Shown: one piece after another, positions 5,436-34,983 of the stretch | Numbering within the stretch: the stretch's first letter is position 1 | How the letters are laid out: each line of letters starts with the position of its first letter | Source: Owenweeksia sp. | GTDB lineage: Bacteria > Bacteroidota > Bacteroidia > Flavobacteriales > Schleiferiaceae | Length of the DNA: 64,000 bases | Direction of reading: 5' to 3' | NCBI GenBank assembly: GCA_002695025.1 | Contig: NZNV01000007.1 | Location: forward strand, 1 to 64,000 | The notes under the pieces: generated by a model | Told to the model about the DNA's origin: nothing | Seen by the model: the letters and a program-made list of their open reading frames with translations, nothing else | The model's database searches: none | Position numbers and translations under genes: made by a program

Positions 5436-8400
5436 TCAACGTAAGATAACCAGTTTTTCGTATTTCTCGGCCAAAACATTATCAGCCTGGGTCCTCACTT
5501 TAACCCGGTAAACGTAAACTCCCTTTCCAATTTTGTCACCGTAGTCATCCAGCCCATTCCAGGCTATACCGGTTACCCGGTTACCATTAGGCACTTTGGT
5601 GGTATTAATGGTCTTTACCAGTTTCCCTGATACGGTAAAAACCTGTATTTGTATATCCATAGGCTGGTTGGCCCGGTTGTGTTCAAACTGAAACTCGGTG
5701 TAGGTGGTAAACGGATTAGGATAATTAAGAACGTGCTTAAGCGCCAGGTCCTCATCATCGGTTACAATAAATTCCGTTTCGGCCTCGGAGAAATTATTGT
5801 ATACATCAAACACCTTTAATTTAAGAGTATGCTCACCCTCTTCCAGATCGAAGAACGGATAACGCACTGATCCGGACTGGTAACTATCAAGATCTGCTTC
5901 ATAGTATTCGTTCACCACATAGGACTGATCAGTTTGATTGTCCAATACAGCAACCAGATCATGCCCGATGCCTGTACCTACAGTATTTACCCCCGATGAA
6001 TCGGATATAACCGCATACAGTTCAGGGTTGTCATTCGTTATGCCGCCTCTTACAAAAGACTCATCATTAATATACAGTTTCACCTCCGGGCCGGTATTAT
6101 CAGCAGGGGCTTTATCATTAAAGCCTCCTACCACAATGGTATCGAACACACCAGCCGCGTCCACATCATTATTGGTGGCATAGTAGCTGATCTTACCAAA
6201 CCCGTATTGATAGGCAATGTCCAGTGGCACCAGGAACTCTACATTAAAGTCTCCGTTTATCACATTTACCTTACCACGATATATTAAACTATTCTGCAAC
6301 GAAAAATTCTGAGGGGCAGGCAGTACTTTATCATTATTGAGGGTTTGCCGCAAGGTGGGTTTATCAAAAACTGAAATATTCAAAACACCATTAAAGTCAT
6401 CCATTTTCTGATCATTGAGATCATTGATCTGCCCCTTCATGGTAATCTTGCTGAGCGCCTCCAAAGTGTCCAGATTTCCAGCGGCTACCGGTTTTCCATT
6501 GATCTCATTGGTCTGCACCCTAAAATACGGAATGGCCAACCTCAGGGAAGGGTCACCGAAAAGAGAGAACTTAAGGCGGGTGGGGTTATTTCTCAGACCG
6601 GTTCCGTTCTTAGCATCCTTAATGATCTCCCCGAGACGTTTAGGTAGATTATTGGGGCGAGTGAGAAGGCTGTCAAAAATATTCTGATTGATCTCACTGG
6701 CCGTTTCCACATCCACCACCCGGGTAGTGGAAACCAACGAAATAGCACCCCCATCAGGATTTAACAGTAGCTGCTCCCCTGCCGATACACGTTTGGGATC
6801 ATCAAAACGGGTAAACTCGCAGGTAATGGTAAGAAAGAGCGGCATTGCATCGTAATTGGTCCAGTTATTAATATCCGAAAGCTGCAGGAACTTTTCTGAA
6901 GCCAGACCTATTTCGCCCCCGTGACCAATGTAGTTTGTAACCAGGTTACCCTGCTGGATCTTGCGGAACATATCCTTACTTGCTTCGGGATAGGATTCAC
7001 TTCCGGAGGTGGTTACCTGTTTATAGGCATCTATATATATCTTATCTACGTTGAAGGCATTGGAAGACTGCAATGCAGCCTGCTCAAGGGAATTGGAAAT
7101 ATTCACAAACTTCCTTTCCCAGCCACTGGGATCGTCCAGGTCATCCGCCATCAGCAATATTTTATTCCGCCAATCCCCAAAGCGGTTATTACCGGTGGCA
7201 TAGTGAATTACCTTATCCACAAAACCCTGGGCCTGGCCCAGTGAGCCACATGGAACCCTTCCGATGCCGATATCCAATAATGCCGTTATCAGGTTGCTCC
7301 CCTCCGAAGGGTCCAGGTAACCGTAGTAATCGTCACTGATACTGGAGGCCTGGAGATTAAATGCCTCATAATCCCCGGGGCGCAGCCAAACCGGAACAAA
7401 ATTATTGTTATTGGTAAGCCGGTCCCGGTAATCATAACTGGCATCACCCATAAGGCACAAGTATTTAAGATCCGTACCTGATCCGTTGCTGCGTGTATAC
7501 AACATACGTACAAAGTCGCGGATAGCCGTTATATCCTGCCCTCCAGAACTGAATTCGTTAAACACCTCATTGGTAGTAACCACCCCTACTTCCATTCCGT
7601 CATTCGACTCGTGGAATTCCGCCAGACGTTCTGCGGCCGGTAAAAAATCCTTGTGGGTTACAATAACCATCTCCATGGGACTCATGGCATGTAAATTCTG
7701 GTTTTCCACCTTTCCTACACTGGTCGGAGCCGGGAAGTCATTGCCCTTAACAGCCACCATTTCCCGCAGCGAGTCCGTGGCAATACGTATTGAAAGATCA
7801 GTGCCATTTAACTGGCCATCTATACCAAAGGCCTGGTTGATATCCGTAACGTCCCAAACCTCTGTCTGGGCATTGGCGTTGGCTATCCTGAATTCCGTTA
7901 CATTACCACTTTGTACACTATTGATATCCCTGAATAACAAAGCGTTGTTCCGATAAATAAGATTTCTCTTCACCTGAACCTCAATGTAATCCAGCCAGGC
8001 CACACCAGTTGGGTTCAGACTGTTATCATAGCGGAGGTTGAGCGAGAAATTATCCGCGGCACTGGTAAAAGAGCTTTCATCCGCTCCTATGGTTACATAG
8101 GGTTGGTTTTCTCCGGACTGGTAAGGATCAAAGGCAATGGTCATGACCGTATTACCGGCCTGTTTTACTTCCATGAAAGTACCAGCCGTACTGGAACGCG
8201 CCACGGCCCGTACCAGGATATTCACGGGTACGGATCGCACCAGATCGGGAAAGTTAAAACCGTAATTATTATCCAGGTCAAAGTCGAAAACATCGCCTAC
8301 CCATACTCTTCCCGCACCCACCAGGTTTTCCAGGTCATCCTCTTTAAATTGGTAGTCATCATAGGTAGTGACTACGGCATCTGGGGTGGCTGAACTGCCG

Positions 8401-9296
8401 GGACGGTTTGCTATTCTAAGACCTTGTCCACTATTTACGGAAACAAAATAATAGTTGACATCCCTATAAAAATTCAGAGTATGCCTGAAGCGATCCTCAG
8501 ATGCGTCATAATTCCAAACGTGCGGACCACGGGCAAAAAATAAGGCATAGTCCGAGCCATCAAACAAACCATTATTATTAACGTCAACCACTTTAAGAGG
8601 AATATCCAGGAGATCATCCTTACGAGGAGCGCTGTTAGCCTCCGGCAATATACCATTGCCATTTCCGGCAACCCTCAGGCTGCTGATGGGAGTATTGTCC
8701 AACTTCACCCCTGATTCTTTCAAAAATGCCGGGGTTAATTTATAGACCCCATCTTTCTCAACCGAGAATTTATGCCAGTCATCTGTACTGAGAACGGATG
8801 TGTTTTTGAAATTCTGGACAGACAAGCGCCCGGTAAGATTAGAGCCCTTTAGTTTCAGGCGTGTGCTGAAACCGGTTATTTTCCTGATCATACCAGACTG
8901 CTTAACATAGGTGGTTACGCAGTACGAGACTTCAACCTGGCCCTGACTTTCACCATAACCTACCTCAATAATACGCGGTTGCGTGGGGAGCTCTTTATTT
9001 TGAAGAAGGCTTTGTTCCTGTGCTGTTGCGGATGTATAAGTCACCTCCGAGATTTCCACTTCATACTCTCCTGGCACATCTACCTTTTCAACGTGACAGG
9101 ACTTCAGAAGATCCGGCTGCTCATAAGTGAATACTGCATTTTTAAAGGAGGGAGCCCTCCCAATGTCGGTACTCCTTTCCTCCGACCATTCTATAGTGTG
9201 TTTTTGTTGTGCCATTAACCTAAAGGGCACTAAACCAAAAACTATCAGTACAACACTCAGCAATAAGCTTCTTCTCATCCGTAAAAATTTGTACAT
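5436..9296 (-). CDS. porU: Type IX secretion sortase PorU (gingipain-like C25 peptidase)
   Basis: A cell-surface sortase that removes the C-terminal domain of T9SS cargo and attaches the mature protein. It has 1,286 residues from the chosen start. Features in order: signal peptide (about 1-30), an N-terminal region resembling other PorU proteins, a C25 peptidase domain with catalytic His792 (GHGGE) and Cys826 (ITCEF), and a long C-terminal half. The C-terminus is itself a T9SS-like sorting domain (NYPNPF near the start, GKGVYVYRVKV near the end). The frame stays open to 9362, but the only good -7 promoter box is at 9360-9367, so the start must be downstream. MYKFLRMRRSLLL at 9296 is preferred; M7 at 9278 is the alternative. 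Confidence 0.93.
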   Translation of the reverse strand: MYKFLRMRRSLLLSVVLIVFGLVPFRLMAQQKHTIEWSEERSTDIGRAPSFKNAVFTYEQPDLLKSCHVEKVDVPGEYEVEISEVTYTSATAQEQSLLQNKELPTQPRIIEVGYGESQGQVEVSYCVTTYVKQSGMIRKITGFSTRLKLKGSNLTGRLSVQNFKNTSVLSTDDWHKFSVEKDGVYKLTPAFLKESGVKLDNTPISSLRVAGNGNGILPEANSAPRKDDLLDIPLKVVDVNNNGLFDGSDYALFFARGPHVWNYDASEDRFRHTLNFYRDVNYYFVSVNSGQGLRIANRPGSSATPDAVVTTYDDYQFKEDDLENLVGAGRVWVGDVFDFDLDNNYGFNFPDLVRSVPVNILVRAVARSSTAGTFMEVKQAGNTVMTIAFDPYQSGENQPYVTIGADESSFTSAADNFSLNLRYDNSLNPTGVAWLDYIEVQVKRNLIYRNNALLFRDINSVQSGNVTEFRIANANAQTEVWDVTDINQAFGIDGQLNGTDLSIRIATDSLREMVAVKGNDFPAPTSVGKVENQNLHAMSPMEMVIVTHKDFLPAAERLAEFHESNDGMEVGVVTTNEVFNEFSSGGQDITAIRDFVRMLYTRSNGSGTDLKYLCLMGDASYDYRDRLTNNNNFVPVWLRPGDYEAFNLQASSISDDYYGYLDPSEGSNLITALLDIGIGRVPCGSLGQAQGFVDKVIHYATGNNRFGDWRNKILLMADDLDDPSGWERKFVNISNSLEQAALQSSNAFNVDKIYIDAYKQVTTSGSESYPEASKDMFRKIQQGNLVTNYIGHGGEIGLASEKFLQLSDINNWTNYDAMPLFLTITCEFTRFDDPKRVSAGEQLLLNPDGGAISLVSTTRVVDVETASEINQNIFDSLLTRPNNLPKRLGEIIKDAKNGTGLRNNPTRLKFSLFGDPSLRLAIPYFRVQTNEINGKPVAAGNLDTLEALSKITMKGQINDLNDQKMDDFNGVLNISVFDKPTLRQTLNNDKVLPAPQNFSLQNSLIYRGKVNVINGDFNVEFLVPLDIAYQYGFGKISYYATNNDVDAAGVFDTIVVGGFNDKAPADNTGPEVKLYINDESFVRGGITNDNPELYAVISDSSGVNTVGTGIGHDLVAVLDNQTDQSYVVNEYYEADLDSYQSGSVRYPFFDLEEGEHTLKLKVFDVYNNFSEAETEFIVTDDEDLALKHVLNYPNPFTTYTEFQFEHNRANQPMDIQIQVFTVSGKLVKTINTTKVPNGNRVTGIAWNGLDDYGDKIGKGVYVYRVKVRTQADNVLAEKYEKLVILR

Positions 9297-9359
9297 GGTA
9301 AACGGTTGAACGGGCAATGTATTATGAAAATACAAAAGTGACGACAAAATTTTTCCGGC

Positions 9360-9367
9360 CAAAGTTA
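9360..9367 (-). promoter_or_regulatory. -7 box of the porU promoter
   Basis: TAACTTTG on the minus strand is a full match to TAnnTTTG, about 64 bases before the chosen porU start. No convincing TTG is seen at -33. The start of the divergent PorP-like gene is 120 bases away on the other side. Confidence 0.45.
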
Positions 9368-9487
9368 GTTTTCATTGAACAGGTTCTAAAAAATCATTTT
9401 ATTTGTAACCTTCTCCCGGGAGGAGCGCAAAAGTTTAATCAAACAGCAAAATATTTGTATACTTGTAGTTTGAAACCCTTAACTGGA

Positions 9488-10471
9488 ATGGGCAAGAAAT
9501 TACTGACTCTTATAATTGTATTGGCATGGTTTGCACCGGATGGCCTTAAGGCCCAGGATGCGCACTTTACACAGTATTATGCCAATCCCTTATATCTGAA
9601 CCCTGCTTTTGCGGGTGTTTCGAAATGTCCCAGAATTACGCTCAACTACCGTAATCAATATCCCGTACTGGACGTTTACCAAACGTATTCAGCTTCTTAT
9701 GACCAATATGTAAGCGGTTTGAATGGTGGGCTTGGTTTACTGGCTATTCGCGATGAAGCAGGTAACGGTGCACTGTCCACTACGGAGGTAAGCGGTATTT
9801 ATTCGTATCATTTAAAAGTGTCCAGGAAGTTCTCTTTCCTCACAGGTTTTCAGGCAACTTTCCGCCAAAGAGCTATAAACTGGGATGGTTTTACCTTCCC
9901 CGACCAGATAGACCCGTTTTTTGGTTTTGTTAAGGAATCCAATGAACTACCTCCGGGCAATAACGTCAATTCACATCTTGACCTTAGTGTGGGATTTCTA
10001 GGGTTTACAGAACGTTTCTACATAGGAGCCACCGTAAATCACATTACTCAGCCTGATGAGAGTTTTTTCAAAACCTCCAAATTGCCCATGAAAATTACCG
10101 GGCATGCCGGGGTAACAATTCCTCTTGGCCGTAAAAGACTTTCCAATAGCCTGCAGAATTACCTGATCCCCAACATAGTATACCAGGTTCAGGGGCCTTA
10201 TGATCAACTTACCCTCAGTACCGCTTTCAGCAGAGGTCCTATTTCAGGAGGACTGGGCTTCCGTACCAGTACTGCCAACCCTGATGCTATTGTAGTGCTG
10301 TTGGGATACGCTCCTGATGAACTGGCCTGGAAAATAGGTTACAGTTACGACATTACCATTTCGCAATTTGCCAATGATCTTGGTGGTGCTCATGAAATAT
10401 CCCTTTCTTATCAATTCCCTTGCCGGGTGAGAAGGAAGCAGATCAAAGCAATAAAATGTCCTAAATTTTAG
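9488..10471 (+). CDS. PorP/SprF-family type IX secretion membrane protein
   Basis: A 327-residue outer-membrane protein. The chosen start gives a clean signal peptide, MGKKLLTLIIVLAWF..., ending near GLKAQ (residue 23), directly followed by DAHFTQYYANPLYLNPAFAG, the hallmark of PorP/SprF proteins. The frame is open to 9317 but those 57 codons have no signal-peptide character. PorP/SprF proteins are outer-membrane partners of individual T9SS substrates or adhesins. This one sits between porU (divergent) and gldJ (27 bases downstream, same strand), so it probably shares a transcript with gldJ. Confidence 0.92.
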   Translation: MGKKLLTLIIVLAWFAPDGLKAQDAHFTQYYANPLYLNPAFAGVSKCPRITLNYRNQYPVLDVYQTYSASYDQYVSGLNGGLGLLAIRDEAGNGALSTTEVSGIYSYHLKVSRKFSFLTGFQATFRQRAINWDGFTFPDQIDPFFGFVKESNELPPGNNVNSHLDLSVGFLGFTERFYIGATVNHITQPDESFFKTSKLPMKITGHAGVTIPLGRKRLSNSLQNYLIPNIVYQVQGPYDQLTLSTAFSRGPISGGLGFRTSTANPDAIVVLLGYAPDELAWKIGYSYDITISQFANDLGGAHEISLSYQFPCRVRRKQIKAIKCPKF

Positions 10472-22965: not shown

Positions 22966-25900
22966 TTATTTCACAAACTGGATAACATGGCGACTGCTCA
23001 GGTCATTCACCCGAATGCGTACAATAACGGATTGACTTCCGTTGATTACGTTATTCAGGTCAAAGATCCATTGCTGCTTGCCACCAGTGGCTTTCTCATT
23101 AACCAGTTCAGCCAGCTTGCGGGCGCCCAGGTCAAAGAGTTCCACTTCTACATCTTCACCTCCCAGCAAGTCCAGTTGCAGGGTTATGCGGCCAGAAGTA
23201 GGATTCGGATAGATACTCACCTTATCGGAAAGCGCATTTTCCAACAATGAAGTATTGTCAATAACCTCGATGTAAGCCACTTTGGTCTCCGGCAAACTGC
23301 TACCGGTAGCATTGGCAGTGATCAGGGTTACATCGTAAAAACCAGCCGCATTATAGGTAATGGTAGGCGTGGTATCATTGGACACCGAAGGTGTACCTCC
23401 GCTGAATACCCAGTTCCAGGTAGTTGGATTATTGGTACTCAGATCCGTAAAGGTTACCGAATCCCCTATCACTATCTGAGTAACATTCGCCACAAAATCC
23501 GCTACCGGAGCAGGTTCCACTACCGTGATGTACTGCGTTTTGGTAAGTGGAGTACTTCCACCAGCACGGTTGTAGGCCTCCAGGCTTACATCATACACAC
23601 CAGCGGTATTATAGGTTACCACTGGAGCAGCTGCGTCTGAATTGGTAGGGCTACCACCGTTAAATGTCCAGTACAAACTATCCGGACTGTTGGTGCTGAG
23701 ATCCGTAAAGCTTACAGTATTACCCGCAATAACATTGGTCACATTTGCCGTGAAGTCCGCCACTGGCGCAGGAGCAATTACCTCCATATACTGGGTTTTG
23801 GTCACCGGTACGCTGGCTCCCGCCTGGTTGTAGGCAATCAGGGTTACATCGTAAAAACCGGTTGTGCTATAGGTTACCGTTGGGCTCATAGCGCTGGAAA
23901 CGGCCGGGCTACCACCGGTAAACACCCAGAACAAGCTATCGGGACTGTGTGTACTCAGATCGGTAAAGAAAGTAGATGATCCTGCTACCACTACGGTAGT
24001 ATCGGCTTCAAAATCTGCAACCGGAGCAGGCTCTATTACTTCGATATACTGCGTTTTGGTGAGCGGAGTTCCGGCACCGGCACGGTTATAGGCCTCCAGG
24101 CTTACATCATATATACCAGGGGTATTATACGTAACGGAAGGCGAAAGCGCATCGGAATTGGCAGGACTACCCCCACTGAACGTCCAGTACAGGCTATCCG
24201 GGCTGTAAGTACTCAGATCGGTAAATGTGGCACTGTTTCCCTGTATCAGCAAGGTATTATCAGCACTAAAGTCAATGACCGGAGCGGGTTCAATTACTTC
24301 AATGTACTGCGTGTAAACTGCCGTATCCTTACCGGCAGAGTTGGCCACCGCCAGCTCCGTGGTATAGAAGCCCGGAGTGTTATAGGTAACCGTTTCATTC
24401 TTATTAGTGGATACAGCCGGTACCCCTCCGTTAAACACCCAGTTACGGGTGGCAGGATAGTTAAGGCTGGTATCCGAATAAGCTACACTGTTTCCTTGTA
24501 CCACCACGGTAGTGTCGGCTTCAAAACCGGCCACTGGAGCCTGGGCTCCCAACCACTTCTCACGTGAGAATACTACGGTAGCCGAAGCATTAAAGGTTAC
24601 GTTAGCACCGGTGGCATCCATCTGCGGGTTGTTGGAACTGCTGGGATGCTGTACGCTGAAGAAACCGAAACGATGATCCGGTGAGAACGTAAGACCGGTA
24701 GGTTCAGAGCCGGCCGGCATGGAGGCAAAGAGTTCAACCTTGGGTGAAGCCTGGCTGTGGTCCGGACGAACTACCCAAATGTAGTTGTTACCACCATCCT
24801 GCAATACCCAAAGGTTACCCTGATCATCAAAGGCCAGGTTGTCATTACCACTACCCCAAGGCTCGGTAAAGATACCCTGGTCGGTATTGAGGATATAGGA
24901 AGTACCTCCCACAAAGGTTTCAAAATTGCTCACATTAGCACCGTTATCCGTAAAGCGGAATACGCGGTTACGGCCCTTGGCTGTGAAATAGATCTTACCA
25001 TCCAAAGGACTGATCTCCACGTCTTCCACACCGTTGAAGTTGGTACCGCCCAGTGAGGCCGCAACGCTGTTCAGGTTGTTGCAATCCGTTTGGGTGGTAT
25101 TGGGTACCTGTACCCAGCTTCCGGTAGTAGAACCCGGCTCATTATTGGAGAAAGGCTGATCCAGCTTAAGCACATACACGCTGCCTGAGCTCAGGTCTCC
25201 AGGTGTATTGGCTACGAACTTGTACACACAGTGGGTACCTCCGTCCTCACCATAATAGGCGGTTACGTTGTCATGGGACACTACCACGTTCTCATGGTTC
25301 ATACGACCCATAGCCCAAAGCTTATCCGAGTTTCCGTCACCATCGTAATCCACTACTTTAGAAGTTACCGGGTCAATTTCCACTAACCAGCCCACATCCT
25401 GGTAACCATCCAGGTTCAGATCACCACCATTGGTGCTTTCTTCGGCCGTGATCACCGTTCCCCAGGGGGTAATACCACCGGAACAGTTACGCGTAGTAGT
25501 TACCAGGGAAGTTGTGAAGAAGTCCACGGCCTGTGAAGTATCCACCGTCCACAGGCGAGCGCTGTCGCTATAGCTGATGTCCAGCATGGATACACCACCA
25601 GGCGTATTCTCATGGTTTACGGAAAGATGTCCGAGTTCACTGCTACCGTTGATAGGTAAATAGGCGGTAAAGTCATGGTTACCGTTAACCACACCACCGC
25701 CTTTGGTGTAAAGGTCGCCCTGCTTGAAGATCATCTGGAATTTATGTGTTCCCTGTGGGATCAGCATATTTCCGGTTTGACCGGTAGGAGCGATAGACTG
25801 GAAACAGGCAATATGCTCAGCATTACCATTGGCGCAACCCAGGGCAGGAGAATTGATCACCGGGGCATCTTCAATATACATATCAAATACAAGGTCAGAG

Positions 25901-28900
25901 CTGGTATTATCCCGCTGGTGCAGTTCCACCGCAACCTGGTTACGGCCTTGCCTGAATACGGAACGGTGGAATTTGTACGTATAGAAAGTGGTTTCATCAC
26001 CACCACCTACCGTGCTGGCAGCATGGGTTTGATAGTCGATAGCCCCGGCTGGCATATTGGAACGGAAAAGTTCAGTACCGTTCAGATACACCACGGCACC
26101 ATCATCCCTGCGCAAACCAAACAATACGGTGTCTCCGGTTGCATTGGTATCGATGAGAATATCCCTGCGGAGGTAAGTAGTGATGTATTTGTTATTGGCG
26201 TCACTTCCGTACGACAAGGTAGTTGTAACCGGGTCACCGTAACCTAAAGGTGCGTTACCCAATCCCCAGCTATAGTCATTATAAAGAGTATCCTTCCATG
26301 CCACAGCATCCAGGTCACTGCCATTATCCAGGTAATGCCATTGCTCACCTTGTGCCATGGGATACGAAGCTGGTGCCAGCGGAGGATCGGTGGCCAGTAC
26401 TTCCATATCAAAACTCAGATCGGAGCTGTTGGCTGAAACCTGATGCAACTCTACGGCAATTACGTTCTCACCGGTTTGCAGCATGGGTCCTACGCGGGTC
26501 TCAAAGTATGTGGTTTCATCACCGCCTCCCACTGCCGTGGAAGCAAAAGTGTTAAACCCGATTGATCCGGAAGGCATATTCTGGCGGAAAGCCTCGGTGC
26601 CATTCACATAAACCACCACACCGTCATCGCGCATTACGCGGAAGATGAGTGAGTCATACTTAGAGGCATCATCCACATCAAAAATGTGGCGCAGGTAATG
26701 CGTAGTGTATTTGTTATTGGCATCCGCACCGTAATCCAAAGTGGTTACATCATTGCCATTTCCATAACCGAAGATGGCATCTCCGTAAGCCCAGGCACTG
26801 TCATTATAGCTCAACGATGTCCAGCTGGTGGCACTGAGATCAGTAGCCGTGGTATCGTATTTCCAGCTACCTCCTTTGGCGATAGGGAAAGTTCCGTTGT
26901 AATACCTTTCGGGTTTTATGTAACTTACCACAAGCCTGGCGGCTTTGGCCGGATCACTTTCATAGGAACGGGCGGTGCGTTTGCCGGTATTTCCGGAATA
27001 GCCGCTTATGCCCAATTGAGCAGGATCAGCCATCATGAAAAGCATGGCATTACCATCTTTCCAGTTGGGTTTATTCACCAGGTAGCTTACAAAAGCACTT
27101 ACATCAGGAGTGCGCTGGGCAGGTGTGGCATCATCAATAGTAGTAAAGGGTGACACGTTCCAGATCAGGGTATCACCCAGGTAGGGCGTGCGGTGGTAGA
27201 TGTCAAAGTCGAAACCGCTCATGGTAAGAGGGTCGTCCTGATCTTCCACTCCGATCAGCACATCCACATTACCACCGGTAGTCACTTCATCAACCGTAAA
27301 CTGGATATAAGCGCTGTTAATTACTGACCCCTGGGGAATGGTGATGTTGTCAAACCTCAAACCGATCAATTGCTCTGAACTGCCATCGGTGGTCAGCTCC
27401 AGATCTGAACTGTTCAGGTACATGGTACCGGCAGATACGTCCTGCTCAGCATCGTCATTACCAGCCAGAACGGGGAAAGCGTTGGTTACCGGAACTGCAC
27501 CGGTATCTACTCTCCAGGCGAGGCTGTACAAGGCCGAATCCAGGGTAAGCTGGTCAAAGCTCACTATATCGCCAATGGCCGAACCTTCGGCTTCAAAAGT
27601 GAAGCTTCCGGTTACATCACCCTTCAGCAGGAAAAAGGAGTTCACGTCCTGGGTAATGGAATCGGGATCATTGAAGAGTTTGGAAAGGTCAACCTCCACG
27701 GTTTGTGGGGTATTCAATGAACGCGGATCTACTAACCATGCTCCTCCCAGGTAGAATGTATCCTGACTACCCACCAGTTGACTGATCACTTTTGACCATT
27801 CACGTCCTACCACAATATTAGCATAGTCAGCAGCAGGTTTATTAGCCAAAGCAAAGCCATTGGCTCCATCCAGGTGAGTACTCCAGCTACCCGCAATCTT
27901 GCTGTTATAGGGCCCTGCAAAGTCAAAACGTACAGGATCTGTAGCCGGAATCAGTTCAGCATTAGAACCCGTGGGAATACTGTCAGCAAGGGCTCCGGTA
28001 TTGAAGTAATATCCGTGGTGTGATTCATTAAAACTGTAGTTGATCTTAAGGCTGGTATCCGTAGAATTACTCATTTCCTGATACATACCATTGCGGATCT
28101 CCTCACCTGTTCTGATTTGGTTCCAGATACGGAACTCATCAAAATCCACCTTATTTACCACATCGGAACTGAAGTAAACACTTCCTCCTAATTTCAGATC
28201 GTGAGGCGTAGAATAGTAATCACCAAATGGGGCACTTCCCATTTTAACACCATTTATGTACAGAGCAATGCTGTCATTTGGAGTGGATGTAACGGCAAGG
28301 TGATTCCACTCTCCCTGATTAAAGGTAGTGGTAGAAGGTACCACCGTCCATCCGCTGGCTGCACCAAAAGTGGCGGTAATGGTTCCGTTTCCGGGGAATT
28401 CCAGAGAAACCCCATAACCATGGTTTCCACCCTGCGCATTGGAGATAAGCTTCTGGTAGCTTCCTACCGATTGATTTAACTTAAACCAGGTCTCCATTGT
28501 AAATGAACCGTTGAAAAGAGGGTCTATCTGAGACTGTGGAATCAGTACATTATGCCCATTGCTCAAGGAAAGGGCTCCCCCAAACAGGTCAAGTGCCTTA
28601 TTTACATCGGCCTTCCAGGCCAGATAATGCACGCCAAAGCTTAAGGGAACATCATCAAAAGAAACAACATTCGCCACAGCGTTACCGCTGGCAATGATCT
28701 CGAATGTGCTTTGCGGATCGCCTTTTACCAGGTAGAATTCCTCTGCAAAGCGGCTCAATGAATCCGCATCGGTAACCACTCGGGTAAGATCGATCTCAAG
28801 GTCTGCCGTATCCAGGTTCATCTGGTTGATCAGCCAGCCACCGGATACATACATGGTATCGGTAGTTCCCACCAGATCCAGTATACGGGTAGCAGGTGCC

Positions 28901-31900
28901 CTTCCAGCCACTAAATTGCTGGTAAAGCCAGGGATGTTGCTGCTCACGTATAAACCGTTATCCGCATTTACTGCGGCACTCCAGCTACCACGAACATTTT
29001 GGTATGCCAGATCCAGGTTACTGACAGCCGCAGTGGCTGATACCAGGGAAGCATTACTGAAAGGCAGGCTATCCAAATTGGCGATGTGGTTTATCAGATA
29101 ACCATTATTCTCCTGATCAAAAGTAAAGTTATACCAAAGATTATTTTGTGTACCATCCAGGCTAAGGTGCATCTGATCCTTGATTTCCTCCCTGGTCTTC
29201 ACTTTGTTCCACAAACGGAACTCATCCATTTCAGCAATAAGCTGGCCGCCATAGTTGATGCTTTTACCAAAAGCGAGGTCCCAGTTATTATTCACCACGT
29301 AATTATCGAACTTTTTAACTGCGGTGAGTTCTCCGTTCACATATACCCTGAAACTATCGTTGGGCGTTACCGTAACGGCCAGGTGATTCCATTCACCGAT
29401 GTTGAAGGTGGCGTTGACACCGGTTGCATTCCAGCTTCCTGTATTAGTTCCGAAAACCACATTCATAGAACTGCTGTTCGGGAACTCAAAAGACATACCG
29501 GTGGTGTTGTTGTTCACCCTCCCATGTGTAGAAAAAAGAGGTGTATTGCCACTGGTAGCCTGCATGGTGCGGAACCATGTTTCTATGGTGAACGGTCCGG
29601 TTAATATAGGATCCACATCCGCGTGCGGGATGGTTACATTATGACCGCTATTAAGCGAAAGGGCACTACCGCGGCCAATGGTGCCGGTACTGTCTGCACT
29701 CCACGCTAAAAAGTAAATACCACCTTCTATGTAGGTGTTGAAGAAGCTTACATTCTGTCCATCAAAACTACCGTTAGCCACGGTGGAAAAATACCCGGCT
29801 GAATCTTCGTGTACCAGATAATAAGAACTGGCTACATTCAGGATAGAATCATGATGATGCAGAGCCTGCGCCAGGTTAATACGGATATTGGCAAAGGGCA
29901 GGTTAAGCTGTTCCAGCTGCCATCCTGATCTGGCATAAAAAGTATGGTTCGCAGCACTCAGGACTGCAAAAGTGGTATCAACATTACGGCCCACTACCAG
30001 GTTGGTAATGTAATCATTAACCGGATCTACCAGGGTAAGGCCCCCGTTGGTGGTATTCCGGATGCTCCAGTTACCTATAACCTTCTCTTTAAAATCATTG
30101 GCAATATCTGCCACGGGCGCAGTGGAGCCTATAAAAGAACCGCCATTCAGTTGCATCTCAAAGGCGGTAGCCCCGGTACTTATAAAGGATGTATCGGTAT
30201 TATCATTGAAATCGAAGTTCAGTTGCAGGCCGGCTTCCGTTCCGGCAAGGCCGTAGTGCATCCTTTTCACAATACTGTCTGCAGGAAGGGCTACGTTCCA
30301 GATGCGGATCTGATCCACATCGGCCTGTACTTCGCTACCGTAAGAAGGACTGTCACCTATACCAAGCCCCCAACTGTTGGTGATATAGCTGCCTACCGCC
30401 TGCTTACCCACTAATATCCCGTTGATGTAAACCCGGGCCGAATCATTCTTAGTAAAGGATAAAGCCAGATGGTTCCATTCGCCAATCTGCCAGGTATTAC
30501 CCAGGTTGGTCTTTGAATTCCAGCCGCTGGTGCCCGTTCCAATAACCATGTTCACTTTATTCTGATCACTGAACTCAAATGCCCAGCCAGTAGTGTTGTT
30601 ATTTACACGGCCATTGCTGGCAATCAGCTTACAGTTGGTGCAGGGATCTCCGTTAAACCGGGCCCAAAGCTCCAAGGTAAAATCATCAGCAAAAATAGGG
30701 TTGATCACACTGCCGGGAATGTGCATGTTTTGTCCACCGCCCAGCTTCAGAGCACTTCCGGCTGCACTTTTCACTCCGGCTACCTCCTGGATGTTTTCTA
30801 TGGAGATCAGTTTCCCGTAAAGCTCCAATTCATCCAGTAAACCGCTGAAGTTCTTGCCCTGGTAATTGCTTCCCAGCATAAAATCCGCGTTAGAAGCCAG
30901 GCTTGACGTTACCCCGGTAAAGAGTTCTATTTGTTGTCCGTTGAAGAAAAGCTTCAACTGACGCTTAACATTATCGTAGGTCCAGGCCAGGTGCGCCCAC
31001 TTGTTCTTCAGCAGCTTCCGCGAAGCGGTATATGCGATACCGGTAGCATGGTCGGTGTATTCGGGGTAGCCTTCACTGTCAAAGCCGATGGAAAAACCAT
31101 TAGTAGCTGTTCCTTTGGATAATACTACGGATCCGTTAGTCCCGAAATCGGAAGGGCGCACCCAATAGGTTAAGCTGTAGGCACGATCATGCATGTTCAC
31201 ATCTACGGCATGAGGTACCGTAAAGCTGGAAGAAGGGCCGAATACCGCGGCACTTGCGGCATTGCCATCTTTATCGGGACCAAAGTTCACCCCACTGGCG
31301 TTTACAGTGCGGTTATCAGCTGAATCCACCAGGCTGTTGGCAAAGGCAAACGCCAGTTTTTTCACACTGTCGTCCACACTAACCAGCATGTCGCTGTGTA
31401 CCAAAACCTCAAAGTACGGTACACCAAACTCATCTTTATACTGAATACGCATCCTGCGGTCAGCAGCATCTCCTTCAAAAGAGGTCTTTACGAAGGTTTG
31501 TTTTACACCCCCCATCAAGCGATCATTATTATAGTCGATGGATACGGATGGATTACTACCTATATCGGAATTCAGGTTACCAGAAAGAATATCATACAAG
31601 GGATATTTGGCACTATATCGTCCGTAGAATTCCTGGCCATGAATATCGGCATCATAAGCTAACACCCCATTGATATTATGATCCTGGATAAACTGAAGCA
31701 GCTCTGTTCCCTGAGACGAAACTGCGTAATTTCTACCCCCTTTTGGGTTAAAAACCGGGGTTCCGGAAATAATTACTTTAAAAGTAGCGGTAGAATTTAA
31801 AAGGGCTTGTTTCAACCAGGCTTGCTGGTCGGGACCAAAATGTGCCAACGTACCGGTACGGTAGCTACGGTTATCGGTTAAGAAGAACTCTACATCATTA

Positions 31901-32736
31901 TATACATAGGATGAGAAAAGACCCTGCCCTTCAGGGGTACTTTTATACTCAGGGTTTGGCCACCAGTCCATAAAGATCTCCTTCATCAATCCCAAGGTGG
32001 GCATAGTCTTGTCAAATTCGTTGGGACCAGTATCGTGATTATCCGTAATGGATAACTGAGGCATGGCGCGGGTAAGTGAATCATGAAACTGCCGATAGAA
32101 CATATACCGGTCAAAAGCCTGGTCCTTATTAGCCCAGTCATCAATACCATTGGGACATTGTCCACCGGCATGCTGTAATCCCAGCAGGTAGGTAGCATCG
32201 CCCAACCAAACCATCAGGTCACTGTCTTCCGTGGCCATCTGGTTAAAAATTTCGGGGGTACCATTAATATGTGCTCCGGAAGTAGCTTCAGGAATATCTA
32301 TACAACGGGTGGTATCATAAATACGACCACAACCTCCCGCTAAAAAAGAGAAATCGTTAAACCCTACTGCCGTATTCTTGATAGAAGAAGTGCGATGGTG
32401 TACGGTTCCGTTCTCTTTCAAAACCGCAGTATAGGTTTCGCCATCCACCAGGCCACCGTATACGTATGACCTTAAGTTATAACCTAAACGACTGTCCGTA
32501 TTGTGTACAGTGCCGCTTAAGGGTGTGGACGAAGAAGCCGGGGTCAATTCCAGCGTTAAGGTATTCCCACTTCCGGTGGCATCCTTGGTTAGGACCCATA
32601 CGCGCACGGAATTATTATACACGGGGCTGAACATAGGCCCAAATACAATGGAATCTCCCGGCAAGGTTTGTGCTGAAAGCAAAGTACTCAGCATCATAAT
32701 CAAGCTCAGAAAAGTCCATTTGGTAATTTTCCTCAT
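22966..32736 (-). CDS. Giant secreted PhoD-LamG-PhoX-PKD protein with T9SS sorting domain
   Basis: 3,256 residues from the start MRKITKWTFLSL (10 codons inside the open frame). Order by eye: signal peptide (1-23); PhoD-like phosphatase/phosphodiesterase domain (about 25-460; motifs WLGDATYLLG, TDNHDTGPNEFD, DADIHGQEFYG); four LamG/ConA-like domains near 462, 662, 1024 and 1387; a DNRLRE-like domain near 1750; two near-identical jelly-roll units near 1947 and 2125; a PhoX-like domain (about 2298-2730; VNHENTPGG, TPWGTVITAEES, YYGEDGG, GNLWVLQDG, FFSVQHPS); five PKD repeats (about 2734-3160); and a T9SS type A sorting domain (IYPNPTSG near 3177). The likely role is cell-surface hydrolysis of organic phosphorus, with the LamG and PKD domains holding it to polymers. 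Both phosphatase cores retain their key acidic and His motifs. Codon use is like that of the neighbours. Confidence 0.9.
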   Translation of the reverse strand: MRKITKWTFLSLIMMLSTLLSAQTLPGDSIVFGPMFSPVYNNSVRVWVLTKDATGSGNTLTLELTPASSSTPLSGTVHNTDSRLGYNLRSYVYGGLVDGETYTAVLKENGTVHHRTSSIKNTAVGFNDFSFLAGGCGRIYDTTRCIDIPEATSGAHINGTPEIFNQMATEDSDLMVWLGDATYLLGLQHAGGQCPNGIDDWANKDQAFDRYMFYRQFHDSLTRAMPQLSITDNHDTGPNEFDKTMPTLGLMKEIFMDWWPNPEYKSTPEGQGLFSSYVYNDVEFFLTDNRSYRTGTLAHFGPDQQAWLKQALLNSTATFKVIISGTPVFNPKGGRNYAVSSQGTELLQFIQDHNINGVLAYDADIHGQEFYGRYSAKYPLYDILSGNLNSDIGSNPSVSIDYNNDRLMGGVKQTFVKTSFEGDAADRRMRIQYKDEFGVPYFEVLVHSDMLVSVDDSVKKLAFAFANSLVDSADNRTVNASGVNFGPDKDGNAASAAVFGPSSSFTVPHAVDVNMHDRAYSLTYWVRPSDFGTNGSVVLSKGTATNGFSIGFDSEGYPEYTDHATGIAYTASRKLLKNKWAHLAWTYDNVKRQLKLFFNGQQIELFTGVTSSLASNADFMLGSNYQGKNFSGLLDELELYGKLISIENIQEVAGVKSAAGSALKLGGGQNMHIPGSVINPIFADDFTLELWARFNGDPCTNCKLIASNGRVNNNTTGWAFEFSDQNKVNMVIGTGTSGWNSKTNLGNTWQIGEWNHLALSFTKNDSARVYINGILVGKQAVGSYITNSWGLGIGDSPSYGSEVQADVDQIRIWNVALPADSIVKRMHYGLAGTEAGLQLNFDFNDNTDTSFISTGATAFEMQLNGGSFIGSTAPVADIANDFKEKVIGNWSIRNTTNGGLTLVDPVNDYITNLVVGRNVDTTFAVLSAANHTFYARSGWQLEQLNLPFANIRINLAQALHHHDSILNVASSYYLVHEDSAGYFSTVANGSFDGQNVSFFNTYIEGGIYFLAWSADSTGTIGRGSALSLNSGHNVTIPHADVDPILTGPFTIETWFRTMQATSGNTPLFSTHGRVNNNTTGMSFEFPNSSSMNVVFGTNTGSWNATGVNATFNIGEWNHLAVTVTPNDSFRVYVNGELTAVKKFDNYVVNNNWDLAFGKSINYGGQLIAEMDEFRLWNKVKTREEIKDQMHLSLDGTQNNLWYNFTFDQENNGYLINHIANLDSLPFSNASLVSATAAVSNLDLAYQNVRGSWSAAVNADNGLYVSSNIPGFTSNLVAGRAPATRILDLVGTTDTMYVSGGWLINQMNLDTADLEIDLTRVVTDADSLSRFAEEFYLVKGDPQSTFEIIASGNAVANVVSFDDVPLSFGVHYLAWKADVNKALDLFGGALSLSNGHNVLIPQSQIDPLFNGSFTMETWFKLNQSVGSYQKLISNAQGGNHGYGVSLEFPGNGTITATFGAASGWTVVPSTTTFNQGEWNHLAVTSTPNDSIALYINGVKMGSAPFGDYYSTPHDLKLGGSVYFSSDVVNKVDFDEFRIWNQIRTGEEIRNGMYQEMSNSTDTSLKINYSFNESHHGYYFNTGALADSIPTGSNAELIPATDPVRFDFAGPYNSKIAGSWSTHLDGANGFALANKPAADYANIVVGREWSKVISQLVGSQDTFYLGGAWLVDPRSLNTPQTVEVDLSKLFNDPDSITQDVNSFFLLKGDVTGSFTFEAEGSAIGDIVSFDQLTLDSALYSLAWRVDTGAVPVTNAFPVLAGNDDAEQDVSAGTMYLNSSDLELTTDGSSEQLIGLRFDNITIPQGSVINSAYIQFTVDEVTTGGNVDVLIGVEDQDDPLTMSGFDFDIYHRTPYLGDTLIWNVSPFTTIDDATPAQRTPDVSAFVSYLVNKPNWKDGNAMLFMMADPAQLGISGYSGNTGKRTARSYESDPAKAARLVVSYIKPERYYNGTFPIAKGGSWKYDTTATDLSATSWTSLSYNDSAWAYGDAIFGYGNGNDVTTLDYGADANNKYTTHYLRHIFDVDDASKYDSLIFRVMRDDGVVVYVNGTEAFRQNMPSGSIGFNTFASTAVGGGDETTYFETRVGPMLQTGENVIAVELHQVSANSSDLSFDMEVLATDPPLAPASYPMAQGEQWHYLDNGSDLDAVAWKDTLYNDYSWGLGNAPLGYGDPVTTTLSYGSDANNKYITTYLRRDILIDTNATGDTVLFGLRRDDGAVVYLNGTELFRSNMPAGAIDYQTHAASTVGGGDETTFYTYKFHRSVFRQGRNQVAVELHQRDNTSSDLVFDMYIEDAPVINSPALGCANGNAEHIACFQSIAPTGQTGNMLIPQGTHKFQMIFKQGDLYTKGGGVVNGNHDFTAYLPINGSSELGHLSVNHENTPGGVSMLDISYSDSARLWTVDTSQAVDFFTTSLVTTTRNCSGGITPWGTVITAEESTNGGDLNLDGYQDVGWLVEIDPVTSKVVDYDGDGNSDKLWAMGRMNHENVVVSHDNVTAYYGEDGGTHCVYKFVANTPGDLSSGSVYVLKLDQPFSNNEPGSTTGSWVQVPNTTQTDCNNLNSVAASLGGTNFNGVEDVEISPLDGKIYFTAKGRNRVFRFTDNGANVSNFETFVGGTSYILNTDQGIFTEPWGSGNDNLAFDDQGNLWVLQDGGNNYIWVVRPDHSQASPKVELFASMPAGSEPTGLTFSPDHRFGFFSVQHPSSSNNPQMDATGANVTFNASATVVFSREKWLGAQAPVAGFEADTTVVVQGNSVAYSDTSLNYPATRNWVFNGGVPAVSTNKNETVTYNTPGFYTTELAVANSAGKDTAVYTQYIEVIEPAPVIDFSADNTLLIQGNSATFTDLSTYSPDSLYWTFSGGSPANSDALSPSVTYNTPGIYDVSLEAYNRAGAGTPLTKTQYIEVIEPAPVADFEADTTVVVAGSSTFFTDLSTHSPDSLFWVFTGGSPAVSSAMSPTVTYSTTGFYDVTLIAYNQAGASVPVTKTQYMEVIAPAPVADFTANVTNVIAGNTVSFTDLSTNSPDSLYWTFNGGSPTNSDAAAPVVTYNTAGVYDVSLEAYNRAGGSTPLTKTQYITVVEPAPVADFVANVTQIVIGDSVTFTDLSTNNPTTWNWVFSGGTPSVSNDTTPTITYNAAGFYDVTLITANATGSSLPETKVAYIEVIDNTSLLENALSDKVSIYPNPTSGRITLQLDLLGGEDVEVELFDLGARKLAELVNEKATGGKQQWIFDLNNVINGSQSVIVRIRVNDLSSRHVIQFVK

Positions 32737-32991: not shown

Positions 32992-34983
32992 TTACTTAAA
33001 TTTCTGTATTGCAACTGAATCGGTCAGAGCTTCCAGGAAAACTAGCAGGGCTTCCTTCTCGTTCTCAGTTAAACCCAAAGGTTCCCCCGGAAGGGTCTGA
33101 TGTGGCACCTCATACTCCAGTCCCAGGCCAAACGCTCCACCCTGGTCGTAAAAATCAATTACTTCCTCCAGGCTGGAATAGGCTCCATTATGGAAATAAG
33201 GAGCAGTAAGTGTTGCGTTACGTACCGTAACGGTCTTAAATGAGTTGCGGTAAATATCCTGGTCTTCAAACTTAACCCGGTTAGCTACCCTTCCCATATC
33301 ACCATCAATAGTATAGGTACCGGGTTTCGCCAACACCCCCAACACTTCACTTTCATTTTCGTGGTACAGCGGGGGCACCAGCCCGCTGAAGGTAGGAGCA
33401 AAATGACAGGTGCCGCAGGCCGCTTTACCCATAAAAAGGTTAAAGCCCTGCCTGGCCTTCGGGTCCAGGGAATCCTGCTCTCCCCGCACATACCGGTCAA
33501 AGGGGCTATTCAGTGAAACCAGCGACATTACGTACGAGGCAAGGGCCTCTGAAAACTGATACCGCGTAATGGTGTTGTCCACACCGTACACCGCGGCAAA
33601 AGCATTTTGGTAGTCCGCATTACCGTTGAGCTTCGCTATGATCTCCTCAAAGCTGGTATTAAACTCCAGGTGGTTGCCCACTACGTGAGCGGCCTGATCC
33701 TGCAGGTCAAAAGCACGGAGATCGTAAAAAAAACGATCGGCAAACACAGCGTTCAACAAGCCCGGGGAATTCCTTTGTACGGTTTTTCCTTTTTCAGAAG
33801 CTGAGGATTTAGGCATTCCATCCGAAAAGGCCAACTCTGGCCGATGGCAGCTACTGCAGCTCATCGCTCCACTCCTGCTCAGGAGTTTTTCATAAAAAAG
33901 GCGTTTCCCCAGTTTTTGCAATGCATCGCTATTGTGGTCTCTGCGCAGGGTTACATAATAATAAGGGTTCAGGAAATCCTCCGCAAAAATGTTGATGCTT
34001 TCCGGGTTCCATGAATTCTCGCGCTGGCTCACACTGGCCGAAGTGGGTAAACGGAGTTCCGCCCCAAGCTCACCCAACACCTTATATATAGGGTTGATAA
34101 ATTCCTTTAAAAAATAAAGGCGGTCCAGCTGCTCAAAGTCTGCCTCACGCTCCAGGAAAGTAACCGCTCCTCGCAGCAGTGTATTCAATCCATGCCTCTT
34201 TGAAGCGGATGCCTCACTAAACAGAGGTGGCAATAATTCCTGCATTGATTCTAATGAAGCCTTAGCCTCAGCTATGGCGTTCAGCGAGCCGGGTGTATCA
34301 AAACCGGTAATTCCCAGGGTAAAAATGCGCACCAACTGCAAACGGCTTGCTTCCAGTACCTCCCAATCCAGGGTATACTTACGGATTTCCATAGCCCTGT
34401 TCAGTACGGCAAACTTAACCACCAGTTCATCGGCCAGCTCACGGATATGTTTTTTGGCGGTGACCGCCTCGTCCGAAAAAACCCATTCATCCAGAACCTG
34501 TAAACCCACCGGCTTTACCACCCTGTTTTGCCCCAGGTAATGCCCACCTTCCAGGAGATCCAGGGGCTGGCTGTTCAGATACGCCAGGGGTCCACCGGGG
34601 TAATAGCTCTCCTGGCTGTTGGAATCCAGTGGGTAGGGATCCGGATGATCCAGGGGCGCCCCGTTGATATAGGCTTGGCAATGTTCCGGGTAATAATAGG
34701 TAAGAATAAACTCAACCCTTTTATAGGAAAGGCGTGTATCCGTCAAGCTCTCTCTGAGTTGTTGGAGAGAAATTTTTCCTTCTTCAAACGCATGAGCATC
34801 ACTTCTGAATTCCTGAATATTCGCTTTACAGGTGTTTACCCATGAAACGATCTTTTGCCGGCTTTCATGATGACCATCAGATAAAGCGGAGAAAGCCCAA
34901 TGCAGCGAAACCATTAAGAGGGTAACTCCGCTCATCACCAATTTTCCGGTACTCCCAAGGCATTTTTTATTTCCTCCTGGCAT
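32992..34983 (-). CDS. Di-haem cytochrome c peroxidase family protein
   Basis: A periplasmic or surface protein of 663 residues. The C-terminal 340 residues are a CcpA/MauG-type di-haem peroxidase with CxxCH at 376-380 (CSSCH) and 523-527 (CGTCH), and the block VRNATLTAPYFHNGAYSSLEEVIDFY near the end. The N-terminal half (about 40-330) is helical and resembles the extra domain of the longer Bacteroidota family members; its role is unknown. The N-terminal hydrophobic stretch (about 13-33) is a signal or anchor. It reads toward the giant phosphatase gene, with 255 bases between, in which I see no gene; cotranscription is possible. Confidence 0.88.
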   Translation of the reverse strand: MPGGNKKCLGSTGKLVMSGVTLLMVSLHWAFSALSDGHHESRQKIVSWVNTCKANIQEFRSDAHAFEEGKISLQQLRESLTDTRLSYKRVEFILTYYYPEHCQAYINGAPLDHPDPYPLDSNSQESYYPGGPLAYLNSQPLDLLEGGHYLGQNRVVKPVGLQVLDEWVFSDEAVTAKKHIRELADELVVKFAVLNRAMEIRKYTLDWEVLEASRLQLVRIFTLGITGFDTPGSLNAIAEAKASLESMQELLPPLFSEASASKRHGLNTLLRGAVTFLEREADFEQLDRLYFLKEFINPIYKVLGELGAELRLPTSASVSQRENSWNPESINIFAEDFLNPYYYVTLRRDHNSDALQKLGKRLFYEKLLSRSGAMSCSSCHRPELAFSDGMPKSSASEKGKTVQRNSPGLLNAVFADRFFYDLRAFDLQDQAAHVVGNHLEFNTSFEEIIAKLNGNADYQNAFAAVYGVDNTITRYQFSEALASYVMSLVSLNSPFDRYVRGEQDSLDPKARQGFNLFMGKAACGTCHFAPTFSGLVPPLYHENESEVLGVLAKPGTYTIDGDMGRVANRVKFEDQDIYRNSFKTVTVRNATLTAPYFHNGAYSSLEEVIDFYDQGGAFGLGLEYEVPHQTLPGEPLGLTENEKEALLVFLEALTDSVAIQKFK

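Follow-up and report, generated by a model that had tools for sequence, protein, structure and literature searches.

A PhoD-PhoX phosphatase fusion of Owenweeksia and the MauG-like di-haem enzymes encoded beside iron phosphatases

Results

Two phosphatase modules in one open reading frame

We analysed a window of 64,000 nucleotides from Owenweeksia sp. (Schleiferiaceae; assembly GCA_002695025.1, contig NZNV01000007.1, positions 1 to 64,000). An initial annotation, made from the letters alone, had described in this window a PhoD-like and a PhoX-like phosphatase fused in one protein of 3,256 residues. The frame is there, uninterrupted and on the minus strand, and a gene for a MauG-like di-haem enzyme, MauG_B, lies 255 bases upstream of it on the same strand. 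The features of the locus are as follows.

22966..32736, minus strand: fusion gene, from its ATG at 32736 to its stop at 22966, 3,256 aa without internal stop
32668..32736, minus strand: Sec-type signal peptide, aa 1-23, from the sequence by eye, no twin-arginine motif
31357..32676, minus strand: PhoD module, aa 21-460, from Pfam and profile alignment
32329..32331, minus strand: codon of Cys136, which aligns with the Fe(III)-thiolate cysteine of PhoD
27517..31356, minus strand: four LamG domains (Laminin_G_3), aa 461-1740, from Pfam, with an arabinanase domain match too
25867..27516, minus strand: linker, aa 1741-2290, two jelly-roll-like copies, from the sequence
24517..25866, minus strand: PhoX module, aa 2291-2740, from Pfam, PDB match and alignment
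25483..25485, minus strand: codon of Cys2418 in the motif NCSGGITPW; P. fluorescens PhoX has this motif too, and the two cysteines align
23242..24516, minus strand: five PKD domains (PKD_4), approximately aa 2741-3165, from Pfam
22966..23214, minus strand: T9SS type A-like sorting tail with a YPNP motif, below curated cut-offs in the window protein
32992..34983, minus strand: MauG_B, 663-aa di-haem MauG-like enzyme with two CxxCH motifs and an axial-type Tyr612

The modules of the fusion come in the order signal peptide, PhoD, four LamG, linker, PhoX, five PKD and T9SS-type tail. The Sec-type N-terminus was read by eye. Pfam returns Laminin_G_3 four times and PKD_4 five times, just as many LamG and PKD domains as had been announced. 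The description of the linker as a DNRLRE-like domain with two jelly rolls fares less well: two jelly-roll-like copies are visible by eye only, and no Pfam family matches residues 1741-2290 at E<=0.1. Similarly, the proposed sorting domain has a visible YPNP tail but scores below the cut-offs in the window protein (19.2 against 27 in Pfam, 16.4 against 23 in NCBIfam); the tail of one relative of the fusion (L009) is above the cut-off, with 35.2. The same window encodes a PorU-type C25 peptidase of 1,308 aa along with a PorP/SprF membrane protein (5436-10471), hence parts of a T9SS are present in the genome carrying the fusion.

Conservation of the metal sites

PhoD and PhoX are unrelated in fold, as the initial annotation stated, and both modules pass their Pfam thresholds. 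The PhoX match (PF05787, residues 2409-2698) reaches 128 bits for a cut-off of 24, and the six fusion proteins known to us, i.e. this one and five homologues presented below, range from 121 to 142 bits. The PDB match of the domain is P. fluorescens PhoX (E 5e-17). AlphaFold models of the two modules are poor (pLDDT 49 and 51) and their Foldseek matches are supportive only: P. fluorescens PhoX (3zwu) comes on top for the PhoX model, whose pLDDT is only 51 (E 1e-14), and on the PhoD side the low-confidence models match purple acid phosphatases (E 2e-7). The candidate metal ligands of PhoX are C2418, E2376, E2433, E2482, D2498, E2571, D2632, D2647 and E2678, and each of these nine positions, the cysteine and the eight acidic ones, is kept in no fewer than 90 of 91 PhoX, whether of Tat, Sec or MauG-linked type. 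We take Cys2418 to correspond to the iron ligand Cys179 of P. fluorescens PhoX. An arginine found in 24/24 Tat-type PhoX is a glycine in the fusion.

The PhoD match (PF09423, residues 153-367) reaches 29.3 bits for a cut-off of 27. The five homologues score between 30.3 and 44.8 bits, so that all six proteins are above the cut-off, and profile-profile comparison (hhalign) of the six domains with canonical PhoDs gives probabilities of 99.9% (A4) and 95.3% (A3). Profile alignment to canonical PhoD places the metal site at C136, D180, Y183, D232, N233, D364 and H366. It shows that the Cys, Asp, Tyr and His positions of the Fe(III) ligands are kept (C136, D180, Y183 and H366); the cysteine providing the Fe(III)-thiolate ligand in B. 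subtilis PhoD is Cys180, according to excerpts of the structure paper (PMC4223295). The calcium ligand Asp266 of B. subtilis PhoD, the mutation of which cuts activity (excerpts of PMC4223295), is replaced by Asn233 in 6/6 fusion proteins, and the counterpart of Asn271/272 is unsure. The initial annotation had both enzymes retaining their motifs, and most ligand positions are indeed kept. Because of the Asp to Asn233 change in PhoD and the Arg to Gly change in PhoX, substrate or rate may differ from those of the canonical enzymes.

One might speculate that the PhoD module is degenerate, or retuned for binding, and that PhoX is the sole phosphatase of the protein. The Pfam score barely above the cut-off and the asparagine in place of a mutationally important aspartate would fit such a role. 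Yet, six ligand positions (C136, D180, Y183, D232, D364 and H366) do not vary among the six species, which belong to several families, and the PhoD modules of the six fusions have 79% mean column identity, which argues for selection on function. We thus find it very unlikely that PhoX acts alone, and prefer to regard the fusion as a double phosphatase. The genome also contains a standalone PhoD-like gene, ended by a contig edge (C26:1-868).

The fusion recurs in other Bacteroidota

We scanned the genomes of 84,980 species with a pattern-based method that finds close relatives only. It revealed the whole PhoD-LamG-PhoX chain in one frame in each of five other Bacteroidota species: Parachryseolinea silvisoli, Dawidia soli and Pustulibacterium marinum, with four LamG domains each, and Niastella populi and Cesiribacter sp. 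SM1, with two each. Since five other species carry the same modules in one open frame, an assembly or frameshift artefact can be rejected. In the genome samples of the family, the phylum and the class, which overlap, the full fusion was found only in the Owenweeksia genome itself (1/88, 1/395 and 1/395, respectively). PhoX-only homologues with the same linker, in frames of 1,165-1,653 aa, occur in seven other genomes of the family and on another contig of the Owenweeksia genome. We found no description of a PhoD-PhoX fusion in the open-licence literature.

In the homologue of Cesiribacter (L011:10001-17497), the PKD domain is followed by two cellulose-binding domains (CBM_3), and these, together with the LamG and PKD domains, suit attachment to particles or polysaccharides. 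On particles the protein might, as the initial annotation proposed, hydrolyse diesters and then monoesters in sequence. A chance meeting of two enzymes in a large adhesin is not favoured: module order is conserved in six species, and MauG_B tracks along.

MauG-like neighbours of the fusion

The MauG-like partners are a genomic context that the initial annotation did not note. In the five relatives, MauG_A, MauG_B, the fusion and then a gene of ~300 aa all lie on one strand; three of the five were scanned for this last gene (L007, L009 and L010), and it encodes an LRR protein in each. The set is split in the Owenweeksia genome, where MauG_B is beside the fusion and MauG_A and the LRR gene flank the PhoX-only paralogue (contig C7). 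A third MauG adjoins a third, divergent PhoX on C27. Among the 20 PhoX-only loci first fetched, 12 have a MauG and 18 an LRR gene. These LRR proteins of ~300 aa have a Sec-type signal and lie beside PhoX (e.g. L007:18817-19725 and L012:1402-2406); their NCBIfam effector matches reflect LRR similarity only and are far below the cut-off.

MauG_B has CxxCH motifs at 376 and 523, and a tyrosine (Tyr612), not a methionine, at the axial position. Its first 350 residues include ~340 N-terminal residues without any Pfam family. Its best PDB matches are di-haem peroxidases, and it falls outside the MauG (TTQ maturase) equivalog (169 for an NCBIfam cut-off of 443.85) and far below the cut-off for MbnH (184 for 363). 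The axial-type tyrosine is present in 77/77 of the MauGs that we aligned, where the classical peroxidase shown aligns a methionine, and this suits chemistry of the MauG type better than that of a plain peroxidase. At the Tyr612 end the alignment points to position 296 of MauG, and we take Tyr294 of MauG to be its axial haem ligand.

MauG_A and MauG_B follow different phosphatase modules

Sequence identity alone does not separate MauG_A from MauG_B. We built a quick tree of 77 MauG rows and a careful one of 58 of 90 rows, from which four long or odd sequences (L147, L148, L224 and L239) had been dropped beforehand. In the careful tree, the six MauG_B of fusion loci form a clade without any other member (bootstrap 100, SH-aLRT 98). 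In its sister group (99/96) are the MauG_A of all five relatives together with the 11 MauGs of PhoX-only loci of the fusion type that the tree includes. The MauG_B clade thus includes 6/6 fusion loci against 0/11 PhoX-only ones, and none of 17 rows of the C27 type. This grouping indicates that MauG_A goes with the PhoX half, fused to PhoD or not, and that MauG_B is found only where the PhoD half is present. A common lineage of PhoD-type MauGs was considered and rejected; the MauGs beside canonical PhoD sit apart from MauG_B in the tree.

A tree of PhoX, made without L147, L189, L184, L213, L211, L212 and the Flavobacterium-type rows, nests the PhoX-only L092, L093 and L099 beside the Pustulibacterium fusion (98). 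Given this position, a joint loss of PhoD and MauG_B in these three loci is possible, as is more than one gain of the two.

These results bear on the idea that the MauG-like proteins are peroxidases or electron carriers of an ordinary kind, with no tie to the phosphatases other than a common phosphate-starvation regulon. Di-haem peroxidases are indeed the best PDB matches, and in F. johnsoniae the MauG-like Fjoh_2477 and the phoX gene Fjoh_2478 are both induced by phosphate depletion, according to excerpts of PMC8115612. But the tyrosine conserved in place of the methionine of the classical peroxidase speaks against this idea, and one would not expect of a general peroxidase that it forms partner-specific clades, with MauG_B only where there is a PhoD half. 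We therefore regard it as quite improbable, and favour enzymes that would act on the phosphatases.

MauG genes beside PhoX, PhoD and purple acid phosphatases

We searched the class sample with MauG_B (E<=1e-80), scoring up to three candidates per genome, and obtained 57 MauG matches in 52/395 genomes. A phosphatase of the PhoX, PhoD or purple acid (PAP) type lies within 4 kb of 48 of them. The nearest partner is PhoX for 36, a PAP-type enzyme for 8 (3/8 on the opposite strand), PhoD for 3 and the fusion for one, and there is none for nine (L221, L220, L236, L214, L215, L217, L219, L235 and L239). In L221, the MauG has as its neighbour an M14 peptidase carrying a T9SS tail. These counts must be interpreted with care: sequences of these very MauG neighbours served as seeds of the PhoD and PAP HMMs and of the HMM for one PhoX type, the PhoX label of L225 comes only from such an HMM, Pfam finding nothing there, and in L148 two frames are confused. 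In the loci scanned, 0/110 ORFs of at least 400 aa located more than 4 kb away from the MauG match the phosphatase HMMs. Pfam scans of neighbours gave 339-359 bits for PhoD, and Metallophos and Pur_ac_phosph_N for the PAP type, of which every member keeps the motifs GDN[AS]Y, GNHD and GHSH. In the family of Owenweeksia, 26 MauG matches occur in 20/88 genomes, of which 25 are beside PhoX and one is at a contig end.

The locus L228 has two MauGs (81-2009 and 7288-9213), with a PhoX-type gene at 77 bases from one of them and a purple acid-type gene at 11 bases from the second, i.e. again one MauG per phosphatase. We found no description in the open-licence literature of a MauG beside PhoD or a purple acid phosphatase. 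The parts of the system are from known families and the pairing of PhoX with MauG is already in print; what is added here is a link of MauG with PhoD and with PAP-type enzymes, and the presence of two MauGs beside a double enzyme.

Export route and presence of MauG

In excerpts of the PhoD structure paper (PMC4223295), both PhoD and PhoX are given as exported by Tat, and insertion of the iron in the cytoplasm, ahead of export, is put forward as a speculation. PhoX occurs at 97 places in 73/395 genomes of the class sample. Of these, 26 are Tat-like by the stricter of two rules, the looser one having given false matches such as L092, 69 are Sec-type or other and 2 are cut. On visual inspection two of the 26, L200 and L181, seem to be false, and 24 were used in the tree. 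A MauG on the same strand within 1.5 kb accompanies 0/26 Tat-like PhoX and 28/69 Sec-type PhoX (p 2.5e-5, Fisher test ignoring descent), a contrast which is not independent of phylogeny since the Tat PhoX fall into just two clades and the MauG-linked ones into a few. The other 41/69 Sec-type PhoX lack a MauG within this distance, which argues against a strict requirement for MauG in cis. L153 carries two Tat-type PhoX genes in tandem.

Discussion

In soils and seas, PhoX and PhoD rank among the main enzymes of phosphate scavenging, and they depend on iron. From what is known of their families, Fe(III) is common to PhoX, PhoD and the PAP-type partners of MauG. For PhoX and PhoD the resemblance goes further: thiolate-ligated Fe(III) with Ca(II) is a rare chemistry common to both, and the authors of the PhoD structure knew of no other proteins with a thiolate-bound redox-inactive Fe(III), nor with the combination of iron and calcium (excerpts of PMC4223295).

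We propose that the fusion is a secreted double phosphatase, with an N-terminal PhoD of the Fe/Ca2 type and a C-terminal PhoX of the Fe2/Ca3 type, joined by modules that would bind sugars or particles. It would be exported by Sec and attached by the T9SS. In other bacteria PhoD and PhoX leave the cytoplasm folded, by Tat. Given the Sec-type signal of the fusion, its iron sites would have to form outside the cytoplasm, where the adjacent MauG-like di-haem enzymes might perform an oxidative maturation, for instance by oxidising Fe(II) to Fe(III) where Cys or Tyr binds the iron. There would be one such enzyme per module, MauG_A for PhoX and MauG_B for the PhoD half. In the Owenweeksia genome, where MauG_A is beside the PhoX-only paralogue on another contig, it would act in trans on the fusion. 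That a Sec- and T9SS-exported double Fe(III)/Ca phosphatase has each iron site matured outside the cytoplasm by its own MauG-like enzyme is our best explanation, and we give it an even chance of being right.

Alternatively, the MauG-like enzymes might oxidise not iron but the phosphatase itself, installing an organic cofactor or cross-link derived from Trp, Tyr or Cys, as MauG does in methylamine dehydrogenase. Lidbury et al. suggest a MauG-made cofactor for the PhoX of Flavobacterium, which alone was inactive in P. putida (excerpts of PMC8812569), and membership in the MauG superfamily and the axial-type tyrosine are also in line with it. Yet, when we looked in PhoX for a MauG-specific Trp or Tyr that could be the target of such a modification, none set the 26 MauG-linked PhoX apart from the 65 others; only two columns differ, one Thr and one Ser. 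Besides, the partners have unrelated folds (PhoX on one side, PhoD and PAP on the other), and the feature common to them is Fe(III), not one aromatic site. We find an organic cofactor unlikely. Oxidative maturation of the iron site is favoured because the partners share Fe(III), and neither a fold nor an aromatic residue specific to the MauG-linked enzymes.

More generally, this branch of MauG-like proteins could be a maturation system for iron phosphatases exported unfolded, be they PhoX, PhoD or purple acid-type, which would replace the loading of iron in the cytoplasm by Tat substrates. There would be one enzyme per module, and the PhoD-PhoX fusion with MauG_A and MauG_B would be the case showing this one-to-one rule. 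We put forward this generalisation tentatively, as a possibility that we lean somewhat against. If it is true, a function can be assigned to a branch of MauG-like enzymes, the simple rule of a MauG gene next to each Sec-exported iron phosphatase would explain why the Flavobacterium PhoX was inactive in Pseudomonas, and there is guidance for the expression of Sec-exported iron phosphatases in active form. The fusion and its MauG partners hint at a way in which iron enzymes might be completed once they have left the cytoplasm.

The closest precedent is the PhoX of F. johnsoniae, a secreted relative of the PhoX module, whose gene (Fjoh_2478) is in one operon with the MauG-like di-haem gene Fjoh_2477; phoX and a MauG-like gene share an operon in all Flavobacterium genomes (excerpts of PMC8812569 and PMC8115612). 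There are differences: in the excerpts of these papers it is a single lipoprotein with one MauG, a PhoD half, LamG domains and a second MauG are not described, and what Lidbury et al. report on PhoX and MauG concerns Flavobacterium only. B. subtilis PhoD (PDB 2yeq) shares with the fusion the metallophosphatase family and the Cys, Asp, Tyr and His positions of the iron site, but it is a single Tat-exported enzyme with a C-terminal cap helix (excerpts of PMC4223295), and its Asp266 is an Asn in the fusion. P. fluorescens PhoX (PDB 3zwu and 4a9v) belongs to the same family as the second module, with the cysteine and the acidic positions conserved, but it is also a single enzyme, with an Arg where the fusion has a Gly, and PhoX is Tat-exported according to excerpts of PMC4223295, unlike the Sec-type fusion. 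Finally, the di-haem enzymes MauG and MbnH have in common with MauG_B the CCP_MauG domain, the two CxxCH motifs and the axial-type tyrosine, from which MauG_B departs by its N-terminal extension, its phosphatase neighbours and scores under the cut-offs of both families.
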